From assembly GCF_003340495.1 (NCBI RefSeq), contig NZ_QASA01000001.1:5022001-5086000 (forward strand): a DNA stretch of 64,000 bases. The letters run 5' to 3'. Each line of letters opens with the position of its first letter. Within the stretch, counting starts at the first letter, position 1. The DNA comes from Adhaeribacter pallidiroseus (lineage in GTDB: Bacteria; Bacteroidota; Bacteroidia; Cytophagales; Hymenobacteraceae). The notes beneath the pieces are model-generated. The model had not been told where the DNA came from and ran no database searches. It worked only from the letters and a program-made list of their open reading frames with translations. Shown one piece after another: positions 32,609 to 50,155 of this stretch. The position numbers were made by a program, and so were the translations under genes.

Positions 32609-34285
32609 CTAATCGGATACCGTATAGCTTAATCCACTCACTACTTGTCCGTTTGGACCTATTTCAAAGACACGTTTTTGGTTCCGGTATATCCAGTATT
32701 CCCCTAAAGCAGCGGAGTACGTATAAGCAGGCGTGCCGTATTGTTTCACTAAAGCGGTAGAAGTACTACTCTGGCCAAAGTTTTTGCTGTTTTTACCAGC
32801 GTACTCTTTCTGAGTATACCGCACCAAGTACCGGCAACAGGTAGTTTGTACGCCCAAAAGCAAATAGTTATTGTCTGGTTGCCATTGAATAAGTAAATAC
32901 GGCTTTTCACTCACTTTCACCCGGGGAGCTTTATCCGGTAAAGAGGCACTAACCTTCTCTGCCCCCTTAAGTTCTGTTTTATTTACTTTAGCTTTATTCT
33001 GGGAAGCAGTTAATTCTTCCTGCGCAAACCAGCTTTCAACCCAATCTAACAGATTTCCCATAACCGATGCCTCTAATTTATTAAACAGATCCAGGTTGTA
33101 ATGGGCCATGTAAGCGTGCTGTTGCTTGGCCAGCTCAAAATCCTGACGGGCGTTTTCGGGTTGTTTGTTTTTATAATGCGCAATACCTCTGATAGTATAA
33201 GCATTTCCCGTTAGTTTGGCAGAGTTTAATTCATTAATAACCCCAATCGCGGCGGCCTGATTTCCGCCGAGCGAATGGATACTGGCCAGGTTAATATAAG
33301 CGGGTACATAAGCCGGATCAATCTCCCGCGATTTTTCGGCATACCGGCGAGCTTCACTTAATAATTGCCTGAACAATGTTGCTTTAAAGGGGGCGGGTGC
33401 GGCTCTATGAATCGCGGTTAAGCGACTTTTGGCATCTAACTCTACGGGATAGACAAATCCGGGCGGCTCCTTGGCCTGGTACAAAGCCAAAGCTTGCTGT
33501 AATTTAGCCGCCGACAAGTTATTCAGAATTTCCCGGCTGGGAAACCGGTTGAGTAAGTACTCAAAACAAGAAGCAGCATCTTCAAATTCCTGAATAAAGT
33601 AAAGGAATTGCCCGGTTTTAAAAACAGCAACCATCTCTCCGGCTTCCGTTTGCTTTTTACTATAAATGGCTTTGCGTTCCTCTTTCGTAGGATAACCCTG
33701 CAACTGGTCGGCTAAACCAAAGCGCTGGTAGAGTAAATCGATAATCTTCGGAAATACGCGCCCCGTAGAAAAGCCCGCTATCTCCCCGTAGAAACACCCG
33801 TAAAAATCAGCCTCCGATTCAAACCGTTCAATATCTTTCTTGGAAGTTTCTACACTGGCCTTTCCTATCCCGAATGTGTAATACCAGTCGTGTTTTTCAT
33901 AATGGTGCGCCAGTTCGTGGCTCAGCAAAACTGCCAGCGCATTAACCGAGTCTTTACCCAGTTTCCGGCATAAATCATATACTTCTTCGCTTAACTGAAT
34001 TAAAGGACGGCTGCCTGGTTGATATTGGGCAATAATGTTGGGCGTACCCGATTTGCGGGCCATAATCTCTAAATGCGGCTGCGGACGGCTATTGGCGAAT
34101 ACGTAAGTTAAACGCGTAAATACCTGGCGCGTGATTTTATACTTAGGCGAGGTTTCCGGCAGGTTTTGCGCTTGCCCACTCCATACCGGGCCGAAAAAAA
34201 GTAACAGCATGCAACTCTCTACTATTTTGGCGAAAAAACGATTAAGCGGGTTTAACCGGAATGCTCTATTTTTTAGTGCCTTCAT
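32609..34285 (-). CDS. M48-type zinc metallopeptidase with TPR repeats
   Basis: 558 aa. A signal or anchor helix (about residues 20-40, CMLLLFFGPVWSG) precedes an M48-like peptidase domain with the zinc motif H123ELAH127 and the third ligand region ESEADFYGC about 30 residues later. Residues from about 205 onward hold TPR-like helical repeats (FLYFIQEFEDAASCFEYLL, ARRYAEKSREIDPAYVPAYINLASIHSLGG, GIAHYKNKQPENARQDFELAK). The C-terminal 130 residues have short beta motifs. It is divergent from the TPR-CHAT gene (213 bp apart) and has an ECF-type promoter 33 bp upstream, so it is a probable member of the local sigma regulon. Confidence 0.85.
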   Translation of the reverse strand: MKALKNRAFRLNPLNRFFAKIVESCMLLLFFGPVWSGQAQNLPETSPKYKITRQVFTRLTYVFANSRPQPHLEIMARKSGTPNIIAQYQPGSRPLIQLSEEVYDLCRKLGKDSVNALAVLLSHELAHHYEKHDWYYTFGIGKASVETSKKDIERFESEADFYGCFYGEIAGFSTGRVFPKIIDLLYQRFGLADQLQGYPTKEERKAIYSKKQTEAGEMVAVFKTGQFLYFIQEFEDAASCFEYLLNRFPSREILNNLSAAKLQQALALYQAKEPPGFVYPVELDAKSRLTAIHRAAPAPFKATLFRQLLSEARRYAEKSREIDPAYVPAYINLASIHSLGGNQAAAIGVINELNSAKLTGNAYTIRGIAHYKNKQPENARQDFELAKQQHAYMAHYNLDLFNKLEASVMGNLLDWVESWFAQEELTASQNKAKVNKTELKGAEKVSASLPDKAPRVKVSEKPYLLIQWQPDNNYLLLGVQTTCCRYLVRYTQKEYAGKNSKNFGQSSTSTALVKQYGTPAYTYSAALGEYWIYRNQKRVFEIGPNGQVVSGLSYTVSD

Positions 34286-34317: not shown

Positions 34318-34348
34318 GATTAGTAGCGGATTTACCGTTTGGTTAGCA
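34318..34348 (-). promoter_or_regulatory. ECF-type promoter of the M48-TPR gene
   Basis: On the minus strand it reads TGCTAACCAA (34348-34339), 13 nt, then TACTAATC (34325-34318). The spacing and both blocks match the sites before the ECF sigma gene, the methyltransferase and the S8 peptidase. The -10-like block is 33 nt from the start codon, giving a short leader. Confidence 0.65.
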
Positions 34349-34498
34349 GCGGTTACACAAAAAAAGATACATTTAAGTACCGGATTACATGTGGTAATTT
34401 ATAGAATAATTAGTACTTTCATACCATTTACCTGAAATACAACTGTTTAAATGAATTAGTAGTAGCTCCCATCACCTCTCTTAATACTTTATTGGCTA

Positions 34499-36826
34499 AT
34501 GAAAATTTTGCTTTTACTTGCCTTATTCTTCCTTCTTGCTGGCAATACGGTAGTAAAAGCCCAGAAGCCCCAATTAGTAGCCGATACTACCCTGGCCCGC
34601 AAATGGTACACGCAAGCGTTAACTTTACAGCAGAAAGGCAGCCTCGACAGTGCGAATACCGCTTTAGCCAAAGCGGCCATATTGTACCGGAAGCACCAGC
34701 AATGGTTCCGGCACTTGGACTGCGAAAATAAGGCTGCCCGTAATTTAGTATCTATGGGTAAGTACGAAGCGGCTTTGCAGAAGGCCAGCCAGGTACAACA
34801 AGAAAGTAAAGCCAAATTTGGCCACGACCAATCCAAAGAAGCAGCCGATGCCCTCCACATTACTGGAATTGTATATTACTACAAAGGAGAATATGATCGG
34901 GCTTTGCAGTTTTATCAGAAAGCCTTGCAGCTTCGCCGTAAAATTCTGGGCGATGACCATCCCGGGTTATGTTCTTCTTATAATAATATCGGCATTATTT
35001 ACTACCGTAAAGGAGAATATGACCAAGCCTTAAAATACTATTACCAGGATTTAGAAATTAGTCTTAAATCATCGGGAAAAACGCACCTGGATATAGCGGC
35101 TTCCTACAGTAATATTGGTAATGTATATTTTGATAAAGCAGATTATGACCAGGCATTTACGTTTACGCAAAAGGCTATCACTCTCAAACTGGAAGCATTA
35201 GGAGAATCTCATCCGGAATTAGCTAATTCTTACAATACGATAGGTAACATATATGCTTATAAAGGGGAGTTAGACAAAGCCCTGGGATATAATTTAAAGG
35301 CCCTGCACCTATGGCAGAAAGCTTTAGGCGAAACGCATCCCTATGTAGGCGCGGCCTACAACAATATCGGTGATATTTATCTGGACAAAGGCGAGTACGC
35401 GCAAGCATTAGACTGTTTTCAAAAAAACTTGCAGATCATTCTTAAGTCCACCAACGAAATGCATCCCGAAATAGCAATTGTGTACCATAATATTGGTAAT
35501 GTATACAATAAACTAGGTGAATATGATCAGGCGCTGCAATATCTTCAGAAAGGATTACAAATCAGGCAACATCATTTAGGGCAATTTCATGATGATGTGG
35601 CTGAATCCTATAATAGTATAGGCGATGTATATTACGACAAAGGCGAGTATGACCAGGCAATGGAATATTACCAAAAAGATTTACAAATTCTTTTGAAATC
35701 TTTAGGTTCGGTTAATCCTAGTCTGGCTGCCTCCTACAATAGCCTGGGTGCTGCTTATCAAGCCAAAGGAGAATACACGAAGGCTCTTAAGCAATATCAA
35801 CTAGCTATTCTGGCCAATGTACCTTCCTTCAAGGATACCAGCAGTACTTCTAATCCAACCTTAAGAAACAAGTCAGGTATTTACCTGGATGGAACCTATT
35901 TACTCACCTCGTTTCACTCGAAAGCCAGCATTTTTGAAAAATTTTATGTTCAATCGCGTGCGAAAGCGGATTTGCAACTGGCGTACCACACCTACTGTGC
36001 CGCCGATACTTTGGCTAGCCAGATTCAATATAATTATTCCGAAGAAAACGATAAAGTAGCTTTTACGAGTAAAGCCAGGCAGTTATACCAAACCGCTCTA
36101 GCGGTATGCCTGAAACTACACGACTTAACCAAGGAAAAAATTTACTTAGATAAAGCCTTTTATTTTGCCGAGCGGGGCAAGGCTAGTGTATTATCGGCTA
36201 CTTTAGCAGAATCCAAAGCAAAAACCTTTGCCGGCATTGCCGATTCCTTGCTAACCCGAGACCAGCAACTGCGCACCTCTATGGCTACTTATAACCAACA
36301 ATTAGCGCAAGAACTCACCAAAGGGGCAACTATAGACAGCAGCAAGCTGAACGAATACCAAACTCGGTTGTTTGCGGCCAGTCAACAACAAGAGCAATTA
36401 ATTCATAAGCTCGAAAAAAGCTATCCGTCTTATTACAATCTTAAATATCAATTTGCAACTATCACTCCCGTTCAACTACAAAAAACACTGGATGAAAAAA
36501 CCGCATTAGTTGAATACGCCCTAGGTGACACGTTATTGCAAGTATTTACCCTCACCCAGGATACTTTTAAGGTGCAATCCTTTTCTTTAGATCCATCCTT
36601 TCACCGGAAAATTGCCGCTTTCCGGAAAGCTATTCTTAGTCAGGATGAGGGTTTGTATCGCCGGGTGGCTTATTCCCTTTACAAAATTTTAGTGCCGCCC
36701 GATATTCCTAAATCTATCCGGCAGTTAATTATTATTCCGGAAGGCGAACTTACGAATTTGCCTTTTGAAGCCTTGCTGACCCAAAACAAAAAAACAAAGG
36801 CGCTAAAGCTACCGCTTACTTACTAG
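34499..36826 (+). CDS. TPR-CHAT protein, TPR part (stops after a frameshift)
   Basis: This 775-aa frame has a signal peptide (MKILLLLALFFLLAGNTVVKAQ), a lead-in, then eight consecutive 42-residue TPR units (kinesin-light-chain type, about 122-440; pattern YYxKGEYDQALxxYQKxLQIxxKxLGxxHPxxAxSYNxIGxV). A helical linker follows, and then the beginning of a CHAT caspase-like domain (ALVEYALGDTLLQVFTLTQD, LIIIPEGELTNLPFEALL). The frame ends early at 36824-36826 because the reading frame changes at A7 (36788-36794). The remaining CHAT domain is in the -1 frame at about 36793-37671. TPR-CHAT proteins are caspase-related proteases or their inactive relatives, with the TPR part sensing a partner. Confidence 0.85.
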   Translation: MKILLLLALFFLLAGNTVVKAQKPQLVADTTLARKWYTQALTLQQKGSLDSANTALAKAAILYRKHQQWFRHLDCENKAARNLVSMGKYEAALQKASQVQQESKAKFGHDQSKEAADALHITGIVYYYKGEYDRALQFYQKALQLRRKILGDDHPGLCSSYNNIGIIYYRKGEYDQALKYYYQDLEISLKSSGKTHLDIAASYSNIGNVYFDKADYDQAFTFTQKAITLKLEALGESHPELANSYNTIGNIYAYKGELDKALGYNLKALHLWQKALGETHPYVGAAYNNIGDIYLDKGEYAQALDCFQKNLQIILKSTNEMHPEIAIVYHNIGNVYNKLGEYDQALQYLQKGLQIRQHHLGQFHDDVAESYNSIGDVYYDKGEYDQAMEYYQKDLQILLKSLGSVNPSLAASYNSLGAAYQAKGEYTKALKQYQLAILANVPSFKDTSSTSNPTLRNKSGIYLDGTYLLTSFHSKASIFEKFYVQSRAKADLQLAYHTYCAADTLASQIQYNYSEENDKVAFTSKARQLYQTALAVCLKLHDLTKEKIYLDKAFYFAERGKASVLSATLAESKAKTFAGIADSLLTRDQQLRTSMATYNQQLAQELTKGATIDSSKLNEYQTRLFAASQQQEQLIHKLEKSYPSYYNLKYQFATITPVQLQKTLDEKTALVEYALGDTLLQVFTLTQDTFKVQSFSLDPSFHRKIAAFRKAILSQDEGLYRRVAYSLYKILVPPDIPKSIRQLIIIPEGELTNLPFEALLTQNKKTKALKLPLTY
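36788..36794 (+). other. A7 run at the frameshift point of the TPR-CHAT gene
   Basis: Zero-frame codons here are AAA-AAA-ACA. Slipping back one base at the second AAA gives AAA-AAC-AAA and the protein KNKGAKATAYLLDKYAISYAYSA, which is the expected CHAT continuation. The site may be a real -1 slippage signal, a mutation, or a base lost in sequencing. Confidence 0.55.
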
Positions 36827-36909
36827 ATAAATACGCCATCAGCTACGCGTATTCGGCCCGCTTACTTTACGAAAGATTAACCCAGCCCAAAGAAAAAGCT
36901 ACCAAACAA

Positions 36910-37671
36910 TTGTTGGCCTTAGCGCCGGTTTTTGCCGACACCCTCTCGAATACTACCGCTGCCAGAAACCGCTCGGTGTTAGGGTATCATCAACCTACCT
37001 CGGTTATTAACACTATTAACGCCCTGGATAAGACGCGTATGGACCAGGCTAAAACTACCACCCCGGAAGTTTCACGTGGCTGGTTACTCAACGGCCAGTA
37101 TGTTTCGCCGTTGTTAGCCTCTAAGCGCGAAGTAGAAACCATTGCCCAATTGTTCCGGCAACGGCAGAACGCGGCTAAAGTATATTTGTATGACCAAGCC
37201 CGCGAAGAACAGCTCAAAGCAGGCGATATAACTCATTACAATTATTTGCATTTAGCTACTCACGGCTTCGTGAACGAAAGCTATCCCGAATTATCCGGTT
37301 TAATATTGGCCCAGGATAGTACTTCTAAAGAAGACGGTATTTTGTATATGGGCGAAATTTACAATCTGCGTTTAAATGCAGATCTGGTTACTTTATCGGC
37401 TTGCGAAACGGGCTTAGGTAAATTGGCTAACGGAGAAGGGGTAATTGGCCTGACTCGGGCTTTGATGTATGCCGGGGCCCGAAACATTGTAGTTTCTTTC
37501 TGGAAAGTACCCGATAATTCCACGGCTGATTTAATGGAAGATTTTTACACGGCCCTCATTTCGGGCGAAGACAAAGCCCAGGCCTTGCAAACCGCCAAAC
37601 GGAAAATGGCCCGCGCAGATAAATATAAACATCCTTTCTACTGGGCGCCTTTTGTGTTAGTAGGCAAGTAA
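36910..37671 (+). CDS. CHAT-domain (caspase-like) catalytic part of the TPR-CHAT protein
   Basis: The 253-aa frame from the first ATG is the rest of the protein; homology actually starts right after the A7 run (about 36793). The catalytic dyad is visible: H118 in LHLATHGF and C165 in TLSACETGLG (fragment numbering). Other family marks are GLILAQ, DGILYMGEIYNLRLNADLV and the end KHPFYWAPFVLVG. If translation requires frameshifting, this protease domain would be made at a lower level than the TPR part. Confidence 0.85.
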   Translation: MLALAPVFADTLSNTTAARNRSVLGYHQPTSVINTINALDKTRMDQAKTTTPEVSRGWLLNGQYVSPLLASKREVETIAQLFRQRQNAAKVYLYDQAREEQLKAGDITHYNYLHLATHGFVNESYPELSGLILAQDSTSKEDGILYMGEIYNLRLNADLVTLSACETGLGKLANGEGVIGLTRALMYAGARNIVVSFWKVPDNSTADLMEDFYTALISGEDKAQALQTAKRKMARADKYKHPFYWAPFVLVGK

Positions 37672-38063
37672 TTGGTTGCTGGTTGTTCGTTGTTTGTTGT
37701 TGGTTGTTCGTTGTTAGAATTACAATATTGTGGCTTTTAGTAGATTATACAGAAAGATAACATCAACTAGAGGCCAAAAATAAATGCTAGTAACAGGTTC
37801 TTTTTTCCTTGTCATTCCAAAGAATTCGGAGAATTCCAGAAGAATCTTGTGAATAGAAAGTAATAGCAAATATTAAAATCATGAGTAAGTTACTGGTGAA
37901 CAGGCAAATAAACTTATTCTAATTTCTATTTTTTGCGACTTCGTTTTCATAAGATTCTTTCAGAATGACAACCCTATTGATTCGCTTATTTTTGTTCGTC
38001 TACCTACCTTATTAGAGGAATTACTCTGAAAAATACTAACAACTAGCAACCAACAACTAACAA
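37672..38063. repeat. Convergent intergenic region flanked by inverted GTTGTT-rich tracts
   Basis: The first 45 bp after the CHAT stop are a low-complexity tract of TTGGTTGCTGGTTGTTCG type. Its reverse complement type (AACAACTAGCAACCAACAAC) occupies 38037-38065 before the anti-sigma stop. Such paired tracts between convergent genes can form a long stem and may end both transcripts. The middle is the dispersed repeat at 37811-37969. Confidence 0.45.
37811..37969. repeat. Dispersed palindromic repeat, copy A
   Basis: The left end (GTCATTCC, then AGAAGAATCTTGTGA) is inverted at the right end (TCATAAGATTCTTTCAGAATGAC, 37947-37969). The centre carries GAGTAAG and CTTATTC. The same end and centre motifs occur in copy B at 40635-40754, so this is a family of elements rather than chance. 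Confidence 0.6.
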
Positions 38064-38723
38064 CTATCTTAAAGCTTGTTTCGGGCGGAAACGTTGTAAA
38101 AGATAAGCGAGAGAATCAATACGTAAGGTATATTGTTCTTTGGCCTGGTTGTATTGCAGGGTAAGCTGGTTTGGAGCAAAGTTCCCATATAACCGTAAAG
38201 TGTCGTTAAACGCGTAAGTTGGGGTGGCCGCCGGGTATAGCAAGATCGTAGTGGTAGAGTCGGCACCAGTGCCCGAAAAGCCGATGGCCGGATCTTGGCC
38301 GGTAACCTGGTACCGGATATTTAGGGATTGGGGTTGGGTAGTTAATTCCTCCTTCTGAACCTGGGCCATGGAGGGAGTATCTTGGTTGGACCGGGAGGTA
38401 AAGTAAAAGATGCCGGTGAAAGCTAACAGTAAAAGAATAGTAGCCGCCACGGCATAGTAATAACTCGGGGTTGTTTTTGTTTTGGCTTCTATTTGGTTAA
38501 AACCAAACTGGCGGTGCATATTTTTTAAATCTTGGCGCAAATCTTCGCGCCCTATTGATTGGGTCTGGGCTATGATAGAGCGTTGCACGGCTACTTCCTG
38601 CCGGAAAGCACCATCGGTGTGTAAACGACGGTTAAAATGCTCTAGATCCTCTCCTTGTAGTTCTTCTGAGAGATACCGCTCAATCCATTCGGTATGAAAA
38701 TTATTTTCGTTTTCCGGCTTCAT
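38064..38723 (-). CDS. Membrane-anchored anti-sigma-type protein
   Basis: 219 aa encoded 1 bp downstream of the ECF sigma gene. The N-terminal 80 residues (WIERYLSEELQGEDLEHFNRRLHTDGAFRQEVAVQRSIIAQ, REDLRQDLKNMHRQFGF) are the cytoplasmic sigma-binding type seen beside ECF factors. One membrane helix follows (YYYAVAATILLLLAFTGIFYF, about 88-108), then a periplasmic region with beta-rich content (YAFNDTLRLYGNFAPNQLTLQYN). It should hold the sigma factor inactive until an envelope signal arrives. Its convergent neighbour is the TPR-CHAT gene, a possible protease for regulated cleavage. Confidence 0.8.
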   Translation of the reverse strand: MKPENENNFHTEWIERYLSEELQGEDLEHFNRRLHTDGAFRQEVAVQRSIIAQTQSIGREDLRQDLKNMHRQFGFNQIEAKTKTTPSYYYAVAATILLLLAFTGIFYFTSRSNQDTPSMAQVQKEELTTQPQSLNIRYQVTGQDPAIGFSGTGADSTTTILLYPAATPTYAFNDTLRLYGNFAPNQLTLQYNQAKEQYTLRIDSLAYLLQRFRPKQALR

Positions 38724-38724
38724 C

Positions 38725-39285
38725 TTACGTATTGTATTCTGGTGAATGAAGAAATTTTTTTTTCAAGCGTTCCACACAACGAAACTTTTGCTGTTTGGCT
38801 ACATTCGCATTAGAATAGTTAAGATTTTCAGCTAAGTCATCTAGGCTTAACTTCTGAAAATAATAACCTACCATAATCGTTCGGCAAGGCTCCCCTAAAT
38901 CTTCAATGGCTAATTTTATGGCTGCTTCATCTACATAAGGGGCAGCTACATCTGCTTCTTCCGTTGGTATCTGAAACAGATGTTCCTCCAAATCGGTAAC
39001 TGATACTTTTGTTTTTAACTTACTCAACCATTTATTCCGGCAAATAGCATACAAATACGTTTTAATGGAGGAAGCCATCGAAAACTTGCCATTTCGTACC
39101 TGCTCGTAAAGGGTAATAATACCTTCCTGATATAAATCTTCGGCCTCTTCCGGACTACCATGATGCGATCGTACAAAATTGGCAATCATGGGCCAGTAAG
39201 CGCTATAGATAAATTCTAAGGCCTGCCTTTTTCCTTCCCGAAGGCCCAGGAGCAATACCTCATCCGATTGGTGTGTTATCTTCAA
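38725..39285 (-). CDS. ECF-family RNA polymerase sigma factor
   Basis: 186 aa with a sigma region 2 (AEDLYQEGIITLYEQV, about 47-62, and SSIKTYLYAICRNKWL) and a region 4 helix-turn-helix (LSLDDLAENLNYSNANVAKQQKFRCVERLKK, about 145-175). It lacks regions 1 and 3, as ECF factors do. The gene is cotranscribed with the anti-sigma gene (1 bp apart). A bipartite motif 53 bp upstream of its start is shared with three other local genes, so I infer it recognises its own promoter. Confidence 0.9.
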   Translation of the reverse strand: MKITHQSDEVLLLGLREGKRQALEFIYSAYWPMIANFVRSHHGSPEEAEDLYQEGIITLYEQVRNGKFSMASSIKTYLYAICRNKWLSKLKTKVSVTDLEEHLFQIPTEEADVAAPYVDEAAIKLAIEDLGEPCRTIMVGYYFQKLSLDDLAENLNYSNANVAKQQKFRCVERLKKKFLHSPEYNT

Positions 39286-39337
39286 ATCTTATTTATAATA
39301 ATTTAGAAGTGATTCTTTAGAGTAACCTACCATCTAT

Positions 39338-39368
39338 TATTAGTATTCCGTTTGGTGGAAGGTTAACA
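39338..39368 (-). promoter_or_regulatory. ECF-type promoter of the sigma/anti-sigma operon
   Basis: On the minus strand: TGTTAACCTT (39368-39359), 13 nt, TACTAATA (39345-39338). The -10-like block is 53 nt from the sigma start codon. With the three matching sites it supports autoregulation by the encoded ECF factor. Confidence 0.7.
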
Positions 39369-39486
39369 CCCGCGCTTAAAAAAAATGGTACGGCACAATA
39401 TTATGCCTGTATTAGTGCCTATTAATGATAGATAAAGCCTTACCAAAAGTACCGGAAAATATTTTTTTAAATTTTTTGCTTTCCCC

Positions 39487-39517
39487 TGTTAACCTTTTTA
39501 AAAGTTGCCTACTAATC
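39487..39517 (+). promoter_or_regulatory. ECF-type promoter facing the methyltransferase gene
   Basis: TGTTAACCTT (39487-39496), 13 nt, TACTAATC (39510-39517). It points to the methyltransferase, 208 nt downstream, giving an unusually long leader. The surrounding 51 bp (39479-39529) also resemble 45575-45626, upstream of the S8 peptidase, in the spacer flanks. Confidence 0.65.
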
Positions 39518-39724
39518 TGTAAACCTGAACGATAAGTTAAGTGATAAATTCAAAATAAACATAAATTTAATGAATAGTAAATACTTTTTACCACCGCTTA
39601 TCGCCTTTAAACCTTTAATTATAAGCGTTTACTTTTTTAGGTAAAATTTAAAAAATTGCGCAACCAACCGATAAGAACTTACCCAAATCAATCATACATA
39701 AACAATTAATTAATTTTTAAAACC

Positions 39725-40570
39725 ATGGAATTACAACTGGAACAAATCCGAGAACAACAAAAAGAAACCTGGAACAAATTTTCGCCTGGCTGGCGCAAAT
39801 GGGACAGCTTTACCATGAACTGGCTCAAACCTTTAGGAGATGAGATTATCCGTTCCCTCCAATTAAAACCTACTGATACCGTGCTGGATGTGGCTGGCGG
39901 AACCGGCGAACCCGGACTCAGCATTGCCCGCATTGTTACGCAGGGAAAAGTAATCATTACTGACTTAGCCGAAGGAATGCTACAGGTGGCCCGCGACAAT
40001 GCAGCCAGAAAAGAAATTACGAACTACGATACCCTGGCCTGCGACGTGTGCGCCTTACCTTTCGAGAATGAAACATTTGATGCCATAAGCTGCCGCTTAG
40101 GCTTTATGTACTTCCCGGATATGTTGCTGGCCGCTAAAGAAATGATGCGGGTTCTAAAACCCGGCGGCCGAATTGCTACGGCCGTTTGGGGAACGCCCGA
40201 TAAAAATTTCTGGGGAACTGCCGCAATGGGGGTTATTAATAAAACCATGCAGCTACCTGCTCCGCCGCCCGGGGCTCCGGGATTATTCCGTTGCGCCAGT
40301 CCTGGTTTTATAGCTCATTTATTTCAGCAAGCCGGATTTAAAAATATCTCGGAGACCGAGGTAACCGGCCAGGTGCCCTGCGGCACCAAAGAAACCTATT
40401 GGGATTTTACCAACGATGTGGTAGCCCCCGTAGTAGCTGCATTAAGCAAAGCCGACCAGGCCACGAAAGACAAAATAAAACAAGAAGTCTTCCGGGTAGT
40501 AGACGAAAGATGCCCCGACAACCAAGCAGCCCTGGATTACGGAGCGGTAATTATATACGGCGAAAAGTAA
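39725..40570 (+). CDS. Class I SAM-dependent methyltransferase (UbiE/methyltransferase-11 type)
   Basis: 281 aa with the Rossmann-like SAM-binding motif VLDVAGGTGEPGLSIA (about 56-71), motif VIITDLAEGMLQVARDNAAR (acidic residue for the ribose), FENETFDAISCRLGFMYFPD, and MMRVLKPGGRIATAVWG. The start is the ATG after ACC at 39725. The substrate is unknown; the family includes quinone, small-molecule and lipid methyltransferases. An ECF-type promoter lies upstream, linking it to the local regulon. Confidence 0.88.
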   Translation: MELQLEQIREQQKETWNKFSPGWRKWDSFTMNWLKPLGDEIIRSLQLKPTDTVLDVAGGTGEPGLSIARIVTQGKVIITDLAEGMLQVARDNAARKEITNYDTLACDVCALPFENETFDAISCRLGFMYFPDMLLAAKEMMRVLKPGGRIATAVWGTPDKNFWGTAAMGVINKTMQLPAPPPGAPGLFRCASPGFIAHLFQQAGFKNISETEVTGQVPCGTKETYWDFTNDVVAPVVAALSKADQATKDKIKQEVFRVVDERCPDNQAALDYGAVIIYGEK

Positions 40571-40634
40571 AGATTGCGGTTTTTGTTCTTACGAATAAAG
40601 TAATCAAACAAAAACAATCTTAAAAGCAATTGCA

Positions 40635-40754
40635 ATCATTCCGGAAAATCTTGTGAGAACAAAGTGGTAAAAGTAATAATCCGAATAAGCTGGTTGCTTA
40701 TTCAATAGTAATTAACGGCTAATACTTTCTTATCACAAGATTCTTCCGGAATAA
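40635..40754. repeat. Dispersed palindromic repeat, copy B
   Basis: The outer arms ATCATTCCGGAAAATCTTGTGA (from 40635) and its counterpart TCACAAGATTCTTCCGGAAT (up to 40752) are inverted. At the centre is a perfect hairpin, GAATAAGC-TGGTT-GCTTATTC (40683-40703). It shares end and centre motifs with copy A at 37811-37969. No protein is encoded, so it may be a MITE-like or intergenic RNA element. Confidence 0.6.
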
Positions 40755-40769
40755 TTAAAAAACAAAATA

Positions 40770-40797
40770 GTTGTTCTTGTAAAATTACAAGAACAAC
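40770..40797. promoter_or_regulatory. Perfect 13-bp palindrome with 2-bp spacer
   Basis: GTTGTTCTTGTAA (40770-40782) and TTACAAGAACAAC (40785-40797) are exact reverse complements separated by AA. No T tract of terminator type follows closely. It could be an operator for a dimeric regulator or the terminator of the methyltransferase transcript. Confidence 0.4.
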
Positions 40798-41122
40798 ACC
40801 TGGTACTTTTGGTCCTATTTTTTTAAATTTTTAGCATTAAACTAAGTACGACCAAAGATTTTACTGTTATTTCTGCATTCAATTAAGCTAAAAAAATAGC
40901 GTATTTATTCTATTTAGCTATAGTGTAAAAGCAGGCCTGCAAATTGGTAAATTTTCTTTTCACTTGCTTTTATTCTAAATTTTAAAAAATCTGAAGCAAG
41001 ACTTTTTAACATCCTCTTTTCTCAAAATTATTCTATTCACAACCAGCTGTTGTGATTTTTCCTACTTCTTACGTCTACAATTTAGCAAAACATTCAATCC
41101 AATCTTAGAATTTTAAAAAATC

Positions 41123-44100
41123 ATGAAAATCAGCATGTTTACTATTTTGCTGTGCTTTATTCTGTATCAAATGCCAACAAGGGCGCAGCAAATATCTAAC
41201 TGTCAGGCTTCGCCTTATCCTATTATGGTAAAGCAAGCAGATGGTTCTCCACTCACCATTATCGGAAAAGGCAACCTACTAAATTCCTGGACCGAAACCA
41301 TTGATGGATATACCGTAGTAAATAGAAATAACAACTACGAATATGCCAGAAAAATAAAGGGCCAGTTAGTACCATCGGGGATAGCAGCCCGCAATACGGA
41401 AGCCAGAAAACCCACAGAAATAGCCTTTCTGCAAAAAATAACAAAATCAATTAAACCCGATGTATCTCTGCCATCTGCATCTAACTCTCCGGCACTTTAT
41501 AATGCCAAGCCAAAGCCATCCGGAAAGCACCATTTAGGCACTCCCCGAACAGGTCGTATTAAAACCTTACTTATTCTGATTAAATACCCCGATATGGCAA
41601 ATACCTACAGTCCTACAAATTTTTATAACCTCATGAACCATTCGGAGTTTCAGGGTTTAGGTAGTTTTAAAGATTTTTATTATCAAAGCTCCGTGGGGTC
41701 TTTATTTATTGAGACCGACGTAGTTGGTTGGTATACCGCTGCGCATAGTTACGCATCCTATGGTCGCCACAATGGCGACCAACGAGCTACTGCCCTGGTG
41801 CGAGAAGCAGTAGATGCCGCCGAGTTGGCCGGGGTAGATTTTTCGAAATATGATAATGACAAAGACGGCATCGCAGACGGGATTATGGTGGCTCATGCGG
41901 GTCCAGGAGCCGAAGAGGGCTCTCAATTATAATACATCTGGTCTCATCGCTGGATACTATCCGCCGGAAACAATCAGGTGCGATACGATGGGGTATGGAT
42001 TGACGATTATATAGTTAATCCGGAAAAAAGAATTTTTACTAATGATATGGTTGGCCGGGGTATATTCTGCCACGAATTCGGTCATTTACTAGGTTTGCCT
42101 GATTTATACGATATCGATGGCAGTTCCGAAGGTTTAGGAGAATGGTCGTTAATGGCAGGGGCCGCCTGGTTAGGTAACGAGCATACGCCCGGAAATTTTT
42201 GTGCCTGGTCCCGGCAAAAGTTGGGCTGGCTATTGCCTCCCATTATTAGTATGCCTGGTAATTACTCCTTGTATTTTGGCAGTGGCATGGGTTACCAGAT
42301 CAACACAGCTTTACCCAACGAATATTTTCTACTGGAAAATCGCCAGAAGTTTAATTTGGATATTGGTTTAAAAGGCAGCGGCCTCGCCATTTACCACGTC
42401 AACTCTAATTTATCCGGCCAATCGGGTAATGCCAACGAAAACATGAAAATGGTGGATTTAGAAGAAGCCGACCGCCAGGACGATTTAGATCGCCGATTTA
42501 ACCGGGGCGATGAAGGCGATTTATTTCCCGGCTCCACTAATAAAACAGCTTTTAATGATGGTACTTACCCCAGCGCTAAAACGTACACCAATGCGAATAC
42601 GGGTATAAATATTCATGGTATTCACATATTCAACGATGGCAATACTTCTCTATTCAAAGCCATTTTCGCCTTCGGCAACGTTTTACCAACGGGCGGTTAC
42701 GATTTGCCGAATGCCTATTTACCCTGCGGTTCCGGTGATTTTATCAACAATTTTAGTCTGCACACTTTGGTAAACAACAATTCTGCTTGCAATGGTTTGG
42801 CTAACAATTACATCAATCACGAGCCTTCGGGCACTAAAACCACGCAATTAGCCCGGGGAAAAACTTTTACTATTAGTATGCAATCCGGACCAAAACCACA
42901 AGGCTTTGGGGTTTGGATAGATTATAATGAAAACCGGGTTTTTGATGATCCCGGCGAAATGGTGTATCGTTCCGGGGTGGCGGGTACCGGGGTATTTACG
43001 GGCACCATTACTATTCCAACCAACATCACTACCGGTATAAAACGCCTCCGGGTAAGAAGTTTAAATAATTACGTCCCGGATGCTTCCGACGCCAGTAAAG
43101 ATCTTGGCCTTGGCGGCGAAACCGAAGATTACACCATCGAGATAGACTACTGCATACCAATATATGCCAACTCTTGTACCTTCGGCGATTATATAGATAA
43201 TTTTAAATTTAATACGCTACAACACGATAATTTTGGTTGCCTGAACACTCCCCGAAACTACTCCAATGTGCATCCTTTCTTTTTCTCTACTACCGTAAAC
43301 CCAGGTCAGAGCTATCCTATCAGCGTACAATCCGGGCCTAAACCACAAGCATTTGGGGTCTGGATTGACTTTAATAATGACCTGGATTTTAATGATGCCG
43401 GCGAATTTGTTTATCGCTCGCCTTCGTCGGGCACCGGGGTTTTCAAAGGCACGGTTACCATTCCGGCCAATGTGGCACCGGGTCAAAAACGCCTGCGGGT
43501 AAGAAGTAAAAATGGTGCTGTATTCTCCGGCAATCAATCCTGCGATCCGTTTGATTACGGCGAAACCCAGGATTATACCATTACCATTAAGGAAGGAGAT
43601 GTAACTTCTGCGGAGTGGAACAAGCGCTTTGGCGGTTCTGGAGCTGATAATTTATCCCGGATGGTCAAAACGCCCGATGGCGGCTATTTATTAGGCGGTC
43701 ATTCCTCCTCCCCTGTCAGCGGCGATAAAAGCCAGGGCAGCCAGGGTCGTAATGACTTTTGGCTGGTAAAAACCGACGGAACGGGCAATAAAAAGTGGGA
43801 TAAACGCTTTGGCGGCACGGAAGAAGAATACCTGAATGCCCTGATCCCTACTGCTGACGGTGGCTACTTGCTCGGCGGCAACTCTTTGTCGGGTGTTTCC
43901 GGCGACAAAACGCAAGCTTCCCGGGGTGGCAAAGATTACTGGGTAGTAAAGATTAATGCGAATGGCACCAAGCAGTGGGATAAACGGTTTGGCGGCACCG
44001 GCGATGATGACTTACACACTTTAATACAACTACCCAGTGGCGACTATATTCTGGCCGGGCATTCTTTATCCGGTGCCGGAGGCGATAAAACCGAAAACAG

Positions 44101-45211
44101 CCGGGGAGCGAGCGATTACTGGGTAGTGAAAATTAATAACAGTGGGACAAAAATCTGGGACAAACGCTTAGGCGGCTCCGGCGAAGATTGGCTGGAGGCC
44201 GCTGTACTGAATACCGATGGCACTCTGCTGCTGGGTGGTCGTTCCACTTCCGGGCAAAGTGGCGACAAAACGCAACTTTCCCGGGGCGGTGAAGATTATT
44301 GGGTAATTAAAATTAACGCGAATGGCGGAAAGTTGTGGGACAAACGCTTTGGCGGCAGCCAGGATGATAACTTACAAGCTTTAACCCGGACTTCGGATGG
44401 TAACTACGTATTAGGGGGCACTTCGGCATCGGACGCTACCGGTGATAAAACTCAAGACAATCGGGGGGAGAACGACTTTTGGATTATAAAAATCAACAGC
44501 AGCGGCAGTAAATTGTGGGATAAAAGGTATGGCGGTGGCTTAAGTGAGGAACTGCATTCTTTAAGTCAAACTTCGGATGGCGGCTACTTATTAGGTGGTA
44601 GATCTAAGTCAGGCATTGGCGGCGAAAAAACGCAAGGCACGCAGGGTGGTTATGACTACTGGATCGTAAAAACGTACAATACTGGTAACTTCTCGTGGGA
44701 CAGGCGCTTTGGCGGCAACGCCGACGAAGACTTACGCACGGTGCTACCGACAACCGAAGGGGGGTATGTGCTAGCGGGTCGATCAGCTTCGGGTATCTCG
44801 GGCGATAAAACCCAATCTTCGCAAGAACGCACGGATTACTGGCTGGTAAAAATGGCACCTATCCCGGAAGAGATTATTCCCGCAACAACTGCCAACCTTA
44901 CAGTTACCCCTGCCCCCGATCTCACAGCAGAATCAACAACTGTAACGAAAGCCTTCCGCTTAGAAACTTTTCCAAATCCGTTTACGGATAAACTTACTAT
45001 TCGCTTTACTCCTTTAAAAACAGAATCAGTTACTGTAAAGGTGTACAACAGCCAAGGGGTAGAAGTAAGAATGTTGTGGAACGGACAAGTAGAAGCAGGT
45101 AAAAAGGTAGAATTAAACTGGCCCATTACTTCCGAAAAAGCCGATTTATACATTATTCGGCTCATTTCGGCTACCACTCCCGTTTACCAAAAGGTAATCC
45201 TGAGAAAGTAG
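41123..45211 (+). pseudogene. Secreted M6-family metalloprotease with GEVED domains, seven propeller-like repeats and T9SS sorting domain, interrupted by one TAA
   Basis: Two frames, 41123-41932 (269 aa) and 41978-45211 (1077 aa), are the same reading frame separated only by TAA at 41930-41932; codons beyond it read YIWSHRW, as M6 enzymes do. In order: signal peptide; pro-region; M6 catalytic domain with CHEFGHLLGLPD (zinc site, about residue 317 of the joined protein); two GEVED domains (FGVWIDYNE..GETEDYTI, FGVWIDFNN..GETQDYTI); seven repeats of about 62 residues (WDKRFGG..GGYLLGG..SGDKTQ); and a C-terminal sorting domain (PNPFTDKLTIRF..VILRK) for type IX secretion. The frame is otherwise clean over 1360 codons, so the stop is recent or an error. 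It is not proven inactive. Confidence 0.85.
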
Positions 45212-45583
45212 ATAGCCGATTCTGCAGGAGGATTGTGGGAAGGCAGAAACAGCTTTTCTACAATCTCCTATACTTCAGGTTTATGTTTAAAATAAAAAAG
45301 CCTAATTACCTACTTTCATGATAGGGCCGCTAGGCTTTACAGAACACTACTTTCGCGAGCGTCCACGCTTGCGATAGAGCTAGAATTAGAGCTTATCAGC
45401 GCTTTTCCAAGCGAAACATTTTACACCTTATTGGCTTAACGGAATGCCATCGGTCAAGAGACTGAGACTGCCCGATGTCTCCTGGCACCCACCTCGCTTC
45501 GCTAAAACTGGCACTAGAACAGGTGTTGCCAGAAGTATCTGTTGCCAAATTTTTAAATTTTTAAAAATATTTTTCTTTTCTCC
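45212..45583. other. Intergenic region before the S8 peptidase, left part
   Basis: A hairpin, AAAGCCTA (45297-45304) with TAGGCTTT (45331-45338), lies 86 bp after the M6 stop and is probably a terminator. Then comes a stretch with GCGAGCGTCCACGCTTGCG (about 45355-45373) and two TGGCAC copies (near 45484 and 45510), resembling repeat debris. A 68-codon frame starting at 45444 looks spurious. Confidence 0.4.
45297..45338 (+). terminator. Terminator-like hairpin after the M6 gene
   Basis: AAAGCCTA/TAGGCTTT, 8 bp, with an A-tract before and no long T tract after. Moderate support. Confidence 0.4.
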
Positions 45584-45614
45584 TGTTAACCTTTCTTACA
45601 AACACCTACTAATC
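45584..45614 (+). promoter_or_regulatory. ECF-type promoter upstream of the S8 peptidase
   Basis: TGTTAACCTT (45584-45593), 13 nt, TACTAATC (45607-45614). It is the closest match to the site at 39487 and faces the S8 gene, 177 nt ahead. A hairpin, CAGAAGAA/TTCTTCTG (about 45622-45647), follows it in the leader. Confidence 0.65.
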
Positions 45615-45790
45615 TATAAATCAGAAGAAAAGGCCTTCGTTCTTCTGTAAAAAGTTACGGCGCTGCAGCGGCCAAAAACTAAAAAACAAGTTGAAAAATC
45701 TTGGTTTGTGGCCCTGTGCTACCGCCCAAAGATTTAATCCATCAAAATAATCCTAAAATCCATTTTAACAATTAATAATCCAGTAAAACC

Positions 45791-48700
45791 ATGAAAATTA
45801 AAATTTTTACTATTTGGCTGTGTCTCATAATGCCCTTTTTTACAGCCATGGCACAACTTAAATTAACTGCTCCGGAAGAGTACACTTATTACCGGAATGG
45901 AAAAAAAGTACGCTTAACTCCCCAAACCGACGAGGTTTATGTCACCTATTCTTCCAAAGTAAATCTTGCTACAGGAAAAATGCAGGCGGCTAAGTTACAA
46001 AACCAGGTAACAAAAGTAGAACCGCGGGATGTATTTGCCCCCCTGAATGCGGTGCGGTACCGATTAAATTCCCGCAATAAAGCCCTATCCATTTCCGGGC
46101 AAGCTATTACGAATCAGTTCACCAGTAACCCGGAGGTAATTACAGCTTATCCCGCCTTTAAAATCGGAAAAGATAAAGTTTACTTGGGTAATAAAATCAC
46201 CTACGTTTTGAAAAAAGATAGCAATAAAGAAAAAGTAAATGCCTTCCTGAAAAATAACAAATCTGCGGTAGTGGAGAAAATTGATTTGGGAGACCGAATC
46301 ATGTACGTAGTAGCCATTGAAAAAGGAGGCAGTGTTTTTAAAATAGCCAATGGCTTGTACGAAAACGGCTTAGTAGAATACGCCGAACCCGATTTTTCTT
46401 TTTCCGGCCGTAGCCACTATCTGCCCAACGACCCTTTTTTCACGTCGCAGTGGTTTCTTCACCAGGAATCAGACGCCGACATTGATGCTCCGGAAGCCTG
46501 GGACATCACTACCGGTTCTAGTTCGGTGGTAGTGGCCGTCATGGACGGGCACGGCTATGATTTGGCCCACCCGGATTTGGAAGGAAAAATAGTAAACCCC
46601 TACGATGCTTATAACGATAGCAATACGCCTTTTCCTCAGAATGAGTTCGCCAACCATGGCACCCCGTGCGCTGGTATTATTGCCGCTGCTACCCACAATC
46701 GCAAAGGTGGGGCCAGCGTGGGCAATAATATTAAGGTAATGCCGGTTAGTATGGGGCACGACGTGCGGGATGGCAGCAATGGCGACGGCGACTGGAGTAC
46801 GAACAGTATCTCTATTGCCCGGGCCGCCGCCAAAATCATCGCCACCCCCGGAGTAGTAGCGGTTAGTAACAGTTATAATTTTAACTCGTCTGATTTTGCT
46901 GCTGCCGTGGAGGTTAGTTTTAATGCCATGTGCTACAATAGCCGGGGTGGCTTGGGCGCTGTTATCCTGGCGTCTACCGGCAACAACGGGCAACCAAACG
47001 CCAAATTTTACCCAGCCGCTTACGATGTTGTCGTGGGTGTAGGTTCTTCGAACAATTACGATACCCGGACTCCTTCTTCTAATTATGGAGGCTATACTGA
47101 TATTGTTGCTCCGGGCACGAATATTCTCACGCTTGACCGCAGTGGCCCTCCCGGTAAATCCAGCGATGATTATATGTTATTCGACGGTACGTCCGCGGCT
47201 TGCCCCGTAGCTGCCGCCGTAGTAGGATTAACCGCTTCGCTTCGCCCGGAATACGGGGTAATGCAACATACTATAGCCTTATTAAAATCAGCGGAAAAAG
47301 TGGGCGGGTATACTTACTACCCCGCAGCCGGACACCCGTACGGCACCTGGAACAATGAAATGGGCCACGGCCGGGTGAACGTGCATCGAGCCTTGCAATT
47401 TATTCAGGGTTTGCCCCAGGTTTACGGCTTTAGCCCCGCCGGCGGACCGGTAGGAACCAAAGTAACGATTACGGGCAAAAGTTTTCTAGGAGCCAGTTTA
47501 GTTACTTTTAATGGCGTGAGCGCCGAGTTTTCGGTCTTGAACGAAACCACCATTCTGGCCACTTCCCCGGCCGGGGGCACATCGGGGTATATTCAGGTGA
47601 GTAATGCTGCCGGAACGGGTACCAGCCCCAAGCAATGGTCCTTGTCCGCTTACTGTACCCCACTCTACGAAATGCCTTGCGCTACCGGCGATTACATTAA
47701 TTTGTTTGGTCTGAATACCTTGCTCAATCTTAATTCGGGCTGTAACGGCCAAACCGCTAACTACATTAATTATGAACCCATAGGCGCTCATACCACCAAT
47801 CTTTCCAGAGGGAAGAGTTATTCAATCAGCATGCAAGGCGGACCCAACCTCTCCCAAGGTTTCGGAGTTTGGCTGGATTACAACAATGACGGCGATTTTA
47901 ATGATACCGGCGAGTTTATTTATAAATCACCTGGCGCCGGTAAAAATGTATTTTCCGGAACCATAACCATACCCGCTAATGCCCCTACCGGTTTGCGGCG
48001 GCTGCGGGTTCGCACTAAGTATTATGCCGTGCCTGCCGCCAATGAATCCTGTACCACCTTTAATACGGGCGAAACGGAAGATTATACGGTAGCTATTGGC
48101 TACTGTGTACCTACCTTAAACTGCCAGTTAGGGAATTACATTAACAATTTTAGCTTTAATACCTTGGCCCACAACAACTCGGGCTGTGAAGGAATTATAG
48201 GAGGTTATTCCAATTTTCCTCCTTCCGGAACGCTCACTACAACCGTGGCCAAGGGACAAAGATATACCCTTAAAGTGCAGTCGGGCACTCTTCCGCAAGG
48301 TTTTGGGGTATGGATCGACTACAACAACGATCAGAATTTTGATGCTAATGAGTTTGTGTACGGGTCCCCTATTGGTACGGAACTTTACAGCGCTACGGTT
48401 ACTATTCCTACCAATGTTTCTACGGGCCTACGCCGGATGCGGGTGATGAGCAAGTACAATACCTTGGTTACCGGAACGGATGCTTGTACCGATTTTGCTA
48501 ACGGCGAAGTTGAGGACTATACGATTACAATTGCCAATGGCGGAGTAGCTTCTACGGAGTGGAACAAACGCTTTGGCGGCACCGGAAACGACTTATTATC
48601 CATAGCCATTAAAACGGCCGACGGCGGTTACCTGCTGGGTGGGCAATCCGACTCAGACATATCCGGCGACAAATCGCAGAGTAACCTGGGCGCTTACGAT

Positions 48701-50155
48701 TACTGGATTGTAAAAACAGATGCCGCTGGCAACAAACAATGGGAAAAACGCTACGGCGGTTCCGGCCGGGATAACCTGAATGCCTTGGTGCAGACCTCTG
48801 ATGGCGGTTATTTATTAGGCGGCAATTCTTTATCCGGAATTTCCGGCGATAAAAGTCAGGCCAGCAGAGGCGGCCGGGATTATTGGGTAATAAAAATATC
48901 TAACACCGGTACCAAGCAATGGGATAAACGCTTCGGTGGTTCCGGGGATGAAGACTTAAAAGTGATATTGCCCTTAGCTAATGGAGAATACCTGCTCGCC
49001 GGCTTTAGCCTATCCGGAGCAGGCGGCGACAAAACCCAAGCCAGTAAAGGCGGGCAAGACTTCTGGGTAGTAAAGCTTAACTCCACCGGCGGGAAGCTTT
49101 GGGATAAGAGTTTTGGCGGCAACAGCGACGATATTTTAAATGCGGCCATTACCACCACCGATGGAGGCTTTCTTATCGGAGGAGGATCAGCTTCGGGTGC
49201 ATCCGGCGATAAAACGCAAGCTACCCGGGGTGCCCGCGATTACTGGGTTGTTAAGCTTAACGCGAATGGTGCTAAGCAATGGGACAAGCGCTTCGGCGGC
49301 AGCCTGGACGATGACTTACAAGCTTTAACGCGTACGGCGGATAACAACTTTTTATTAGGAGGAATTTCGGCCTCCGCCGCTAACGGCGACCGCTCCCAAA
49401 CCAGCCAGGGCGGAAACGACTTCTGGATAGTTAAAATCAATAGCGATGGTACTAAATTGTGGGACAAACGTTTTGGCGGCAGTAGCAGCGATGAACTTAA
49501 GTCTATTACGACAACCAGTGATGGTGGCTATCTTTTAGGCGGCCGGTCCAATTCAAGTAACAACGGCGATAAATCGCAGGGTAGCCAGGGCAGCTACGAC
49601 TATTGGATTGTGAAAATTAATACTACCGGTGGCAAACAATGGGATAAACGCTATGGTGGTAATGCGGAGGAAGACTTACGCACTGTATTTCCGACCAGTG
49701 ATGGGGGTTATGTGTTGGCGGGCCGGTCAGTTTCGGGTATTTCGGGCGATAAGACGCAGGTCTCGCAGGGTGGCACTGACTTCTGGTTAGTAAAAGTGCC
49801 TCTTGTCAGCATAGTCTTAACCTATCCGGTTGATTCTACTCCTGCTGCTGACGCCGCAAAAGTAGTCGAGTCCGAAACAGAACCAATAAAAGCAAAACTT
49901 AGCCTGAATACCTATCCTAACCCTTTCCGCGATAAGCTCACCGTTGATTTTACTCCCGAAAAAACCGGACAAGCTACTATTAAGGTGTATGATAGCCAGG
50001 GAACCGAAGTAAAAACCTTGCTCCAGGGCGAGGTCGAAGCCGGCAAAAAGTACGAATTAAGTTGGCAACTAACCTCCGAGAAAGATGGTATTTATATCAT
50101 CCGGTTAAGTACCGCCGGCGCGGTAACCGCCACAAAAGTTATTCTAATTAAATAA
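45791..50155 (+). CDS. Secreted S8 (subtilisin-like) peptidase with IPT, GEVED, seven propeller-like repeats and T9SS sorting domain
   Basis: 1454 aa with a signal peptide (MKIKIFTIWLCLIMPFFTAMAQ). The subtilisin triad is D252 (VAVMDGHGYD), H289 (ANHGTPCAGI) and S468 (FDGTSAACPVAA), with N398 in the oxyanion region (STGNNG). After the catalytic domain come an IPT/TIG domain (about 545-625, GFSPAGGPVGTKVTITG), two GEVED domains (DYNNDGDFNDTGEFIY; DYNNDQNFDANEFVY) and seven repeats of about 62 residues (48555-49790). A type IX sorting domain closes it (YPNPFRDKLTVDF..KVILIK). The tail from GEVED onward mirrors the M6 gene upstream, pointing to exchange of a common C-terminal cassette. An ECF-type promoter precedes it. 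Confidence 0.92.
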   Translation: MKIKIFTIWLCLIMPFFTAMAQLKLTAPEEYTYYRNGKKVRLTPQTDEVYVTYSSKVNLATGKMQAAKLQNQVTKVEPRDVFAPLNAVRYRLNSRNKALSISGQAITNQFTSNPEVITAYPAFKIGKDKVYLGNKITYVLKKDSNKEKVNAFLKNNKSAVVEKIDLGDRIMYVVAIEKGGSVFKIANGLYENGLVEYAEPDFSFSGRSHYLPNDPFFTSQWFLHQESDADIDAPEAWDITTGSSSVVVAVMDGHGYDLAHPDLEGKIVNPYDAYNDSNTPFPQNEFANHGTPCAGIIAAATHNRKGGASVGNNIKVMPVSMGHDVRDGSNGDGDWSTNSISIARAAAKIIATPGVVAVSNSYNFNSSDFAAAVEVSFNAMCYNSRGGLGAVILASTGNNGQPNAKFYPAAYDVVVGVGSSNNYDTRTPSSNYGGYTDIVAPGTNILTLDRSGPPGKSSDDYMLFDGTSAACPVAAAVVGLTASLRPEYGVMQHTIALLKSAEKVGGYTYYPAAGHPYGTWNNEMGHGRVNVHRALQFIQGLPQVYGFSPAGGPVGTKVTITGKSFLGASLVTFNGVSAEFSVLNETTILATSPAGGTSGYIQVSNAAGTGTSPKQWSLSAYCTPLYEMPCATGDYINLFGLNTLLNLNSGCNGQTANYINYEPIGAHTTNLSRGKSYSISMQGGPNLSQGFGVWLDYNNDGDFNDTGEFIYKSPGAGKNVFSGTITIPANAPTGLRRLRVRTKYYAVPAANESCTTFNTGETEDYTVAIGYCVPTLNCQLGNYINNFSFNTLAHNNSGCEGIIGGYSNFPPSGTLTTTVAKGQRYTLKVQSGTLPQGFGVWIDYNNDQNFDANEFVYGSPIGTELYSATVTIPTNVSTGLRRMRVMSKYNTLVTGTDACTDFANGEVEDYTITIANGGVASTEWNKRFGGTGNDLLSIAIKTADGGYLLGGQSDSDISGDKSQSNLGAYDYWIVKTDAAGNKQWEKRYGGSGRDNLNALVQTSDGGYLLGGNSLSGISGDKSQASRGGRDYWVIKISNTGTKQWDKRFGGSGDEDLKVILPLANGEYLLAGFSLSGAGGDKTQASKGGQDFWVVKLNSTGGKLWDKSFGGNSDDILNAAITTTDGGFLIGGGSASGASGDKTQATRGARDYWVVKLNANGAKQWDKRFGGSLDDDLQALTRTADNNFLLGGISASAANGDRSQTSQGGNDFWIVKINSDGTKLWDKRFGGSSSDELKSITTTSDGGYLLGGRSNSSNNGDKSQGSQGSYDYWIVKINTTGGKQWDKRYGGNAEEDLRTVFPTSDGGYVLAGRSVSGISGDKTQVSQGGTDFWLVKVPLVSIVLTYPVDSTPAADAAKVVESETEPIKAKLSLNTYPNPFRDKLTVDFTPEKTGQATIKVYDSQGTEVKTLLQGEVEAGKKYELSWQLTSEKDGIYIIRLSTAGAVTATKVILIK

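Follow-up and report, generated by a model that had tools for sequence, protein, structure and literature searches.

Closest described systems

Self-regulation by extracytoplasmic function (ECF) sigma factors is ordinary, and the scheme of an autoregulated local regulon with a membrane anti-sigma factor (the RpoE-RseA type) is well known. Here we analyze a locus of this general kind in Adhaeribacter pallidiroseus, which lies in a 64,000-nucleotide stretch of the genome (contig NZ_QASA01000001.1, positions 5,022,001 to 5,086,000, forward strand), referred to below as the window; coordinates without a locus prefix are those of the window. As in the RpoE-RseA type, the sigma factor gene adjoins a gene for an anti-sigma candidate with one transmembrane (TM) segment, and a sigma-type motif precedes the sigma factor operon itself as well as neighboring genes. 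In contrast to that type, the pair is linked to a TPR-CHAT protease that is apparently exported, the motif has the form TGTTAACCTT-N13-TACTAAT, and the apparent target genes encode secreted proteases and a methyltransferase, joined in one relative by a peptide-maturation operon. It is unusual for such a scheme to be paired with a caspase-like protease that appears to be exported.

A second point of comparison is the CASP/Craspase system of type III-E CRISPR loci, in which the TPR-CHAT protease Csx29 cleaves the sigma factor inhibitor Csx30 and three CASP-sigma motifs are reported at the locus (PMC10028731). The two loci are alike in encoding a TPR-CHAT protease beside an ECF sigma factor and its (here putative) inhibitor and in having several sigma motifs per locus. 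The CHAT His and Cys are likewise present here, with the window gene interrupted ahead of them. The CASP protease is a cytoplasmic one that works with a Cas7-11 effector, whereas a signal-peptide-like start is seen here in TPR-CHAT and a TM segment in the inhibitor candidate. Finally, the SM6 ECF promoters of Flavobacterium psychrophilum, likewise from Bacteroidota, comprise those of an ECF/anti-sigma pair and of genes related to secretion (PMC9723704); the -10 element found here, TACTAAT, sets the present locus apart.

Literature searches returned no paper on Adhaeribacter sigma factors, and those on CHAT or TPR-CHAT proteins with ECF sigma factors or Bacteroidetes returned CRISPR papers or nothing, with most subscription papers and bioRxiv outside their coverage. 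We offer a promoter sequence and a regulon for a Cytophagales sigma factor, in Adhaeribacter, and regard the TPR-CHAT partnership, together with the peptide-operon target, as a variant worth testing.

A bipartite motif at the sigma factor locus

Judging from sequence, we consider it very likely that the four copies of the motif in the window serve as promoters for the ECF sigma factor whose gene lies at 38725..39285 (minus strand) and that they make up an autoregulated regulon under a membrane anti-sigma factor. The sigma factor, a protein of 186 amino acids (aa) whose gene has a TTG start as in both congeners examined, scores 87.4 bits with the TIGR02937 sigma70-ECF model (cutoff, 42.9) and 45.5 bits with Sigma70_r2 (cutoff, 24), and its region 4 gives a Sigma70_r4 match of 19.4 bits, under the cutoff of 24.1. 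Sigma factors of the ECF group (group IV) have sigma70 regions 2 and 4 only and about 190 aa, and this protein belongs among them. Directly after it comes a protein (38064..38723, minus strand) that consists of an N-terminal domain, one TM segment, and a C-terminal domain and has no match in Pfam or NCBIfam. One TM segment is present in 9 of 9 homologues of this sigma-adjoining protein. Membrane anti-sigma factors typically adjoin the sigma factor and have one TM helix and a cytoplasmic N-terminal domain for sigma binding; by linkage and topology, which is as expected for such a factor, we treat the protein as a putative one.

The motif is found before the gene for an M48-like TPR protein, hereafter M48-TPR (34319..34348, minus strand; TGCTAACC-N15-TACTAAT), before the sigma factor gene itself, as autoregulation would require (39339..39368, minus strand), before a divergent methyltransferase gene (39487..39516, plus strand), and before the gene for an S8 peptidase (45584..45613, plus strand). 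All four sites are intergenic and directed toward the respective genes, the distance from the -10 box to the start codon being 33, 53, 208, and 177 nucleotides (nt), respectively. The initial annotation had named the same sites and the same four genes, with coordinates that each ran one base too long at the -10 end. The constant spacing that it described is seen in 4 of 4 copies (15 nt from TGYTAACC to TACTAAT, or 13 nt after TGYTAACCNN), and three of the four do share TGTTAACCTT, as it had pointed out.

It had further called for a genome-wide search, which returns only these four exact matches to TGYTAACC-N15-TACTAAT in the whole genome (6,425,974 bases in 3 contigs), all of them within 11.3 kb and intergenic upstream of genes. 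The backward (reversed) pattern has no exact match in the genome, and 100 dinucleotide shuffles of the window sequence contain no exact copy. The signal is confined to the exact sites, because relaxed matches barely exceed the backward and shuffled controls: allowing up to 3 mismatches yields 7 matches in the window (shuffled mean, 4.5), and allowing up to 2 yields 44 in the genome (backward pattern, 30), so that the weaker matches are mostly noise. Among the 30 of these 44 matches that were classified, 15 lie within open reading frames (ORFs), 10, including the 4 exact sites, are intergenic upstream of an ORF, and 5 are in other intergenic positions. Two 1-mismatch sites, at 1.55 and 5.90 Mb, are intergenic and ahead of ORFs; they score below 7 with a matrix built from the known sites and were neither counted as targets nor dismissed. 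At most of the aligned motif sites, A/T tracts lie directly upstream of the -35 box, possibly as a UP-like element.

Conservation of the sites

Close relatives of this sigma factor (type A) are found in four genomes: that of the window (G000), the congeners G003 and G004, and G207, which comes from another family. Among 204 genomes of the family, a sigma factor with at least 73% identity is encoded only in G000, G003, and G004, and these account for 8 of the 9 exact matches to the pattern (4, 1, and 3, respectively); the ninth, in G118, sits inside an ORF. G003 and G004 keep together the genes for the sigma factor, the anti-sigma candidate, the methyltransferase, the S8 peptidase, TPR-CHAT, and M48-TPR, with that for an M6 peptidase in G003 only, and both have sites with 0 to 1 mismatch ahead of the sigma factor, methyltransferase, and M48-TPR genes.

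In G207, the sigma factor (64% identical), anti-sigma candidate, TPR-CHAT, M48-TPR, and S8 genes are also found together. The locus (L226) contains three motif matches, before the sigma factor gene, the gene divergent from it (which is not a methyltransferase gene), and the S8 gene, and 0 of 200 shuffles reach three. As G207 was scanned after the motif had been drawn, it constitutes an independent test. Its M48-TPR site is weaker, with 3 mismatches, and was found by eye. Across the type A genomes, corresponding sites precede the sigma factor gene in 4 of 4, the divergent gene in 4 of 4, M48-TPR in 4 of 4, and S8 in 3 of 4, with a spacer one base longer in G003. No motif was found before TPR-CHAT in any of the four genomes or before the M6 gene in the two genomes inspected for it.

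Pairwise comparison of the sigma factor sites gives identities of 100% for the -35 box (60/60) and 86% for the -10 box (36/42), compared to 37% for the spacer (29/78) and 46% for the flanks (139/300). The corresponding values are 95, 86, 42, and 49% for the divergent-gene sites and 90, 86, 23, and 36% for the S8 sites (two genomes). The boxes have been kept while spacers and flanks diverged, and the sites therefore appear to be preserved promoters rather than copied repeats.

Agreement between sigma factor clade and motif

Paralogous (type B) modules are encoded in G001, G003, G004, G005, and G255, the last of the same genus as G207. They carry a variant motif, GTTRACYT-N13-CTAYTMAT, which is found with 0 to 2 mismatches before the sigma factor in 5 of 5 modules (in G255, before the operon that holds the sigma factor gene). 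In a tree of 45 sigma factor sequences, types A and B form a clade of nine with support values of 100/99; the distant sequences in this tree have long branches and uncertain placement. A scan of the wider collection gave 68 loci, of which only L079 to L081 were close; most of the others were distant sigma factors and were not used.

The motif tracks this clade. All nine clade members carry it no more than 400 nt upstream and with 2 mismatches or fewer, and only 0 or 1 of 200 shuffles do equally well. By contrast, none of 19 sister sigma factors has the motif at this threshold within 400 nt (their best matches have 3 to 6 mismatches), in a control that covers the region directly upstream, counted from the alignment start. 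The autoregulated ECF regulon proposed in the initial annotation is well supported by this comparison, with the motif upstream of the sigma factor gene in 4/4 type A genomes, 5/5 type B modules (in variant form), and 0/19 sister sigma factors. In the eight genomes of the genus, GTTRACYT-N13-CTAYTMAT, taken as the generic form of the motif, has 7 exact matches, all located at type A or type B modules or at a peptide operon of G004 that is described below. With one extra base in the spacer, 18 matches are found versus 19 for the backward pattern; this longer form also picks up the S8 site of G003.

Alternative explanations

Fixed-spacing bipartite motifs can also be operators, and the sites might be bound by a DNA-binding activator or repressor rather than serve as sigma promoter elements. 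We find this quite improbable: the motif is asymmetric, directed toward genes, nearly fixed in its spacing, and follows the sigma factor clade (9/9 versus 0/19), and no other regulator was recognized among the genes common to the four type A blocks, an inspection made by eye and not systematically. Use of the sites by another sigma factor is very improbable. Two alternatives, the ECF sigma factor of a second TPR-CHAT module (0.69 Mb) and the core paralogue (3.41 Mb), are indeed encoded in the genome, and ECF regulons can overlap; against this stand the restriction of exact sites to the present locus, the region upstream of the core paralogue, where the best match has 4 mismatches and the motif is missing, and the concentration of exact family matches in the three genomes with a type A sigma factor. 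Chance matching, or an origin from the remains of some repeated element, has a practically negligible probability: genome-wide counts at 1 to 2 mismatches hardly exceed the controls, yet all four exact matches are clustered, none is reproduced in the shuffles, and the boxes, unlike those of copied repeats, are kept across genera between diverged spacers and flanks, with conservation in G003, G004, and G207.

Several observations weigh against reading the sites as promoters of the local ECF sigma factor. One sister sigma factor, L234, has a match with 3 mismatches, a quality attained in just 4 of 200 shuffles. In the eight genus genomes, the generic pattern at up to 1 mismatch gives 39 matches versus 32 backward (site classification covers 30 of the 39, with L187 and L190 scored on the better neighboring site), and sequences of the same clade went in part into defining this generic motif, the L225 site being already known as L079. 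No S8 site was found in G004. The M48 sites show a weaker contrast, with pairwise identities of 70% (-35), 86% (-10), 51% (spacer), and 45% (flanks). Lastly, the distance from the -10 box to the methyltransferase start varies from 78 to 247 nt across species. A small ORF in the methyltransferase leader, seen by eye, was dropped because the length of this leader varies between species.

Proposed control of the sigma factor

In the regulon that we infer from these patterns, the local sigma factor would bind the four sites, with TGTTAACCTT as the -35 element and TACTAAT as the -10 element, and transcription would start just downstream. The sigma factor would be restrained by the membrane anti-sigma factor encoded right after it. 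An envelope signal would inactivate the latter, and the free sigma factor would transcribe its own operon, in a positive feedback, along with the divergent methyltransferase gene and the genes for the M48-like protein and the S8 protease, predicted to be secreted by the type IX secretion system (T9SS). The anti-sigma candidate and TPR-CHAT are additions to the account given in the initial annotation.

As to what might release the sigma factor, we tentatively propose that the apparently exported TPR-CHAT could act as a signal-activated site-1 protease, cleaving the periplasmic part of the anti-sigma factor. This cleavage is suggested because the two proteins consistently occur together and would come into contact in the periplasm, the expected meeting place in view of the signal-peptide-like start of one and the TM segment of the other. 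As part of the same tentative proposal, the switch might represent, outside CRISPR and in the periplasm, a counterpart of the Csx29-Csx30-sigma circuit, one that turns on secreted proteases and ribosomal peptides in Cytophagales.

The TPR-CHAT module

TPR-CHAT is encoded in the sequence around the sigma factor gene in 9 of 9 loci of the clade, and a full CHAT domain is found in 0 of 19 sister stretches (12 to 20 kb), one of which, L234, has a weak partial CHAT match. Within the clade, the link of TPR-CHAT to the sigma factor, as judged from gene neighborhoods, is firm. In the window, the protein is represented by an N-terminal part with a signal-peptide-like start (34499..36826, plus strand), whose frame is broken near 36.8 kb, and a C-terminal part (36910..37671, plus strand) that matches the CHAT domain PF12770 with an E value of 1.9e-57. 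What we take to be the His and Cys of the CHAT motif do not vary among the nine CHAT regions that were aligned. N termini of eight TPR-CHAT proteins look signal-peptide-like by eye in 8 of 8 cases, a hydropathy scan flags 5 of the 8, and the five type B proteins carry an additional C-terminal TM segment. When the CHAT region alone was compared with Protein Data Bank (PDB) sequences at E values up to 0.1, only five sequences named “CHAT domain protein” were retrieved, with nonsignificant E values of 0.026 to 0.043; presumably these are the Craspase structures.

The window copy (34499 to 37671) is interrupted ahead of the catalytic His and Cys, and an uninterrupted copy is present in G004. Similarly, the M6 peptidase gene of the window has an in-frame stop near 41.9 kb, with an uninterrupted copy in G003. 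These interruptions could reflect errors in the assembly or genuine losses, and in the latter case the function of the proposed switch might be compromised in this strain.

The recurring unit apparently consists of an ECF sigma factor, a one-TM anti-sigma candidate, and an apparently exported TPR-CHAT, to which type A adds M48-TPR. A search of 110 loci for M48-TPR homologues gave 6 with such a gene (those of both congeners, G207, L248, L249, and L270), always beside TPR-CHAT and a sigma factor; 40 random stretches, 18 sister loci, and 5 type B loci had none. One of these loci, L248 (G000:C1:686000-704000), is the second module of the A. pallidiroseus genome, near 0.69 Mb; it encodes an ECF sigma factor, an anti-sigma candidate, a TPR-CHAT of 1203 aa, and an M48-TPR homologue with 56% identity.

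Beyond the clade, a general link between TPR-CHAT and ECF sigma factors is suggestive only, because a sigma factor gene lies within 4 kb of TPR-CHAT in 10 of 40 stretches versus 4 of 40 stretches at hand-picked positions (Fisher p = 0.07); the 40 with TPR-CHAT were picked from 144 matches, and several were ended by contig ends. With the sigma factor E value required to be below 1e-20, a cut chosen after seeing the data, the same comparison gives 8/40 versus 0/40.

A different arrangement is seen at the core paralogue (L074:9516-11279 in G000, 3.41 Mb), where an ECF sigma factor widespread in Cytophagales is followed by a protein that, by eye, resembles a fusion of an anti-sigma factor with a trypsin-like protease domain. 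All 18 fetched sister sigma factors (L227 to L244) are likewise followed by homologues of this fusion candidate.

Peptide-maturation operons

The initial annotation had called the regulon local; it is not strictly so, since in G004 an exact site, with a weaker tandem site, is located 240 kb from the sigma factor gene, ahead of a peptide operon (L070:10002-16623). This operon starts with a small peptide gene, recognized by eye, followed by genes for a grasp-with-spasm ATP-grasp protein and a SPASM maturase, both over curated cutoffs, and it also encodes a peptidase-ABC-transporter-like protein with scores below cutoffs. TIGR04192 is present in one of the eight genus genomes. The type B modules of G001 and G005 adjoin LanB-like genes (named from sequence), before which no motif was found, and that of G255 adjoins a homologue of the G004 peptidase-ABC-transporter-like protein. 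The module of sigma factor, anti-sigma candidate, and apparently exported TPR-CHAT, sometimes beside peptide-maturation genes, could be a cellular relative or a parallel of the CRISPR-linked protease-sigma circuit.

Other genes of the locus

M48-TPR (32609..34285, minus strand) has an N-terminal hydrophobic segment and a HELAH motif, an instance of the HExxH pattern that we take to indicate the M48 family; in Pfam, it has weak TPR matches only. The methyltransferase (39725..40570, plus strand) is a class I, UbiE-like enzyme by domain match; its site is kept in G003, G004, and G207, in the last before a different gene. The M6 peptidase (41123..45211, plus strand) and the S8 peptidase (45791..50155, plus strand) both match GEVED and T9SS sorting domains. 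Long C-terminal repeats of the WDKRFGG type, about 50 aa in length, are also common to the two peptidases (41978 to 50155).

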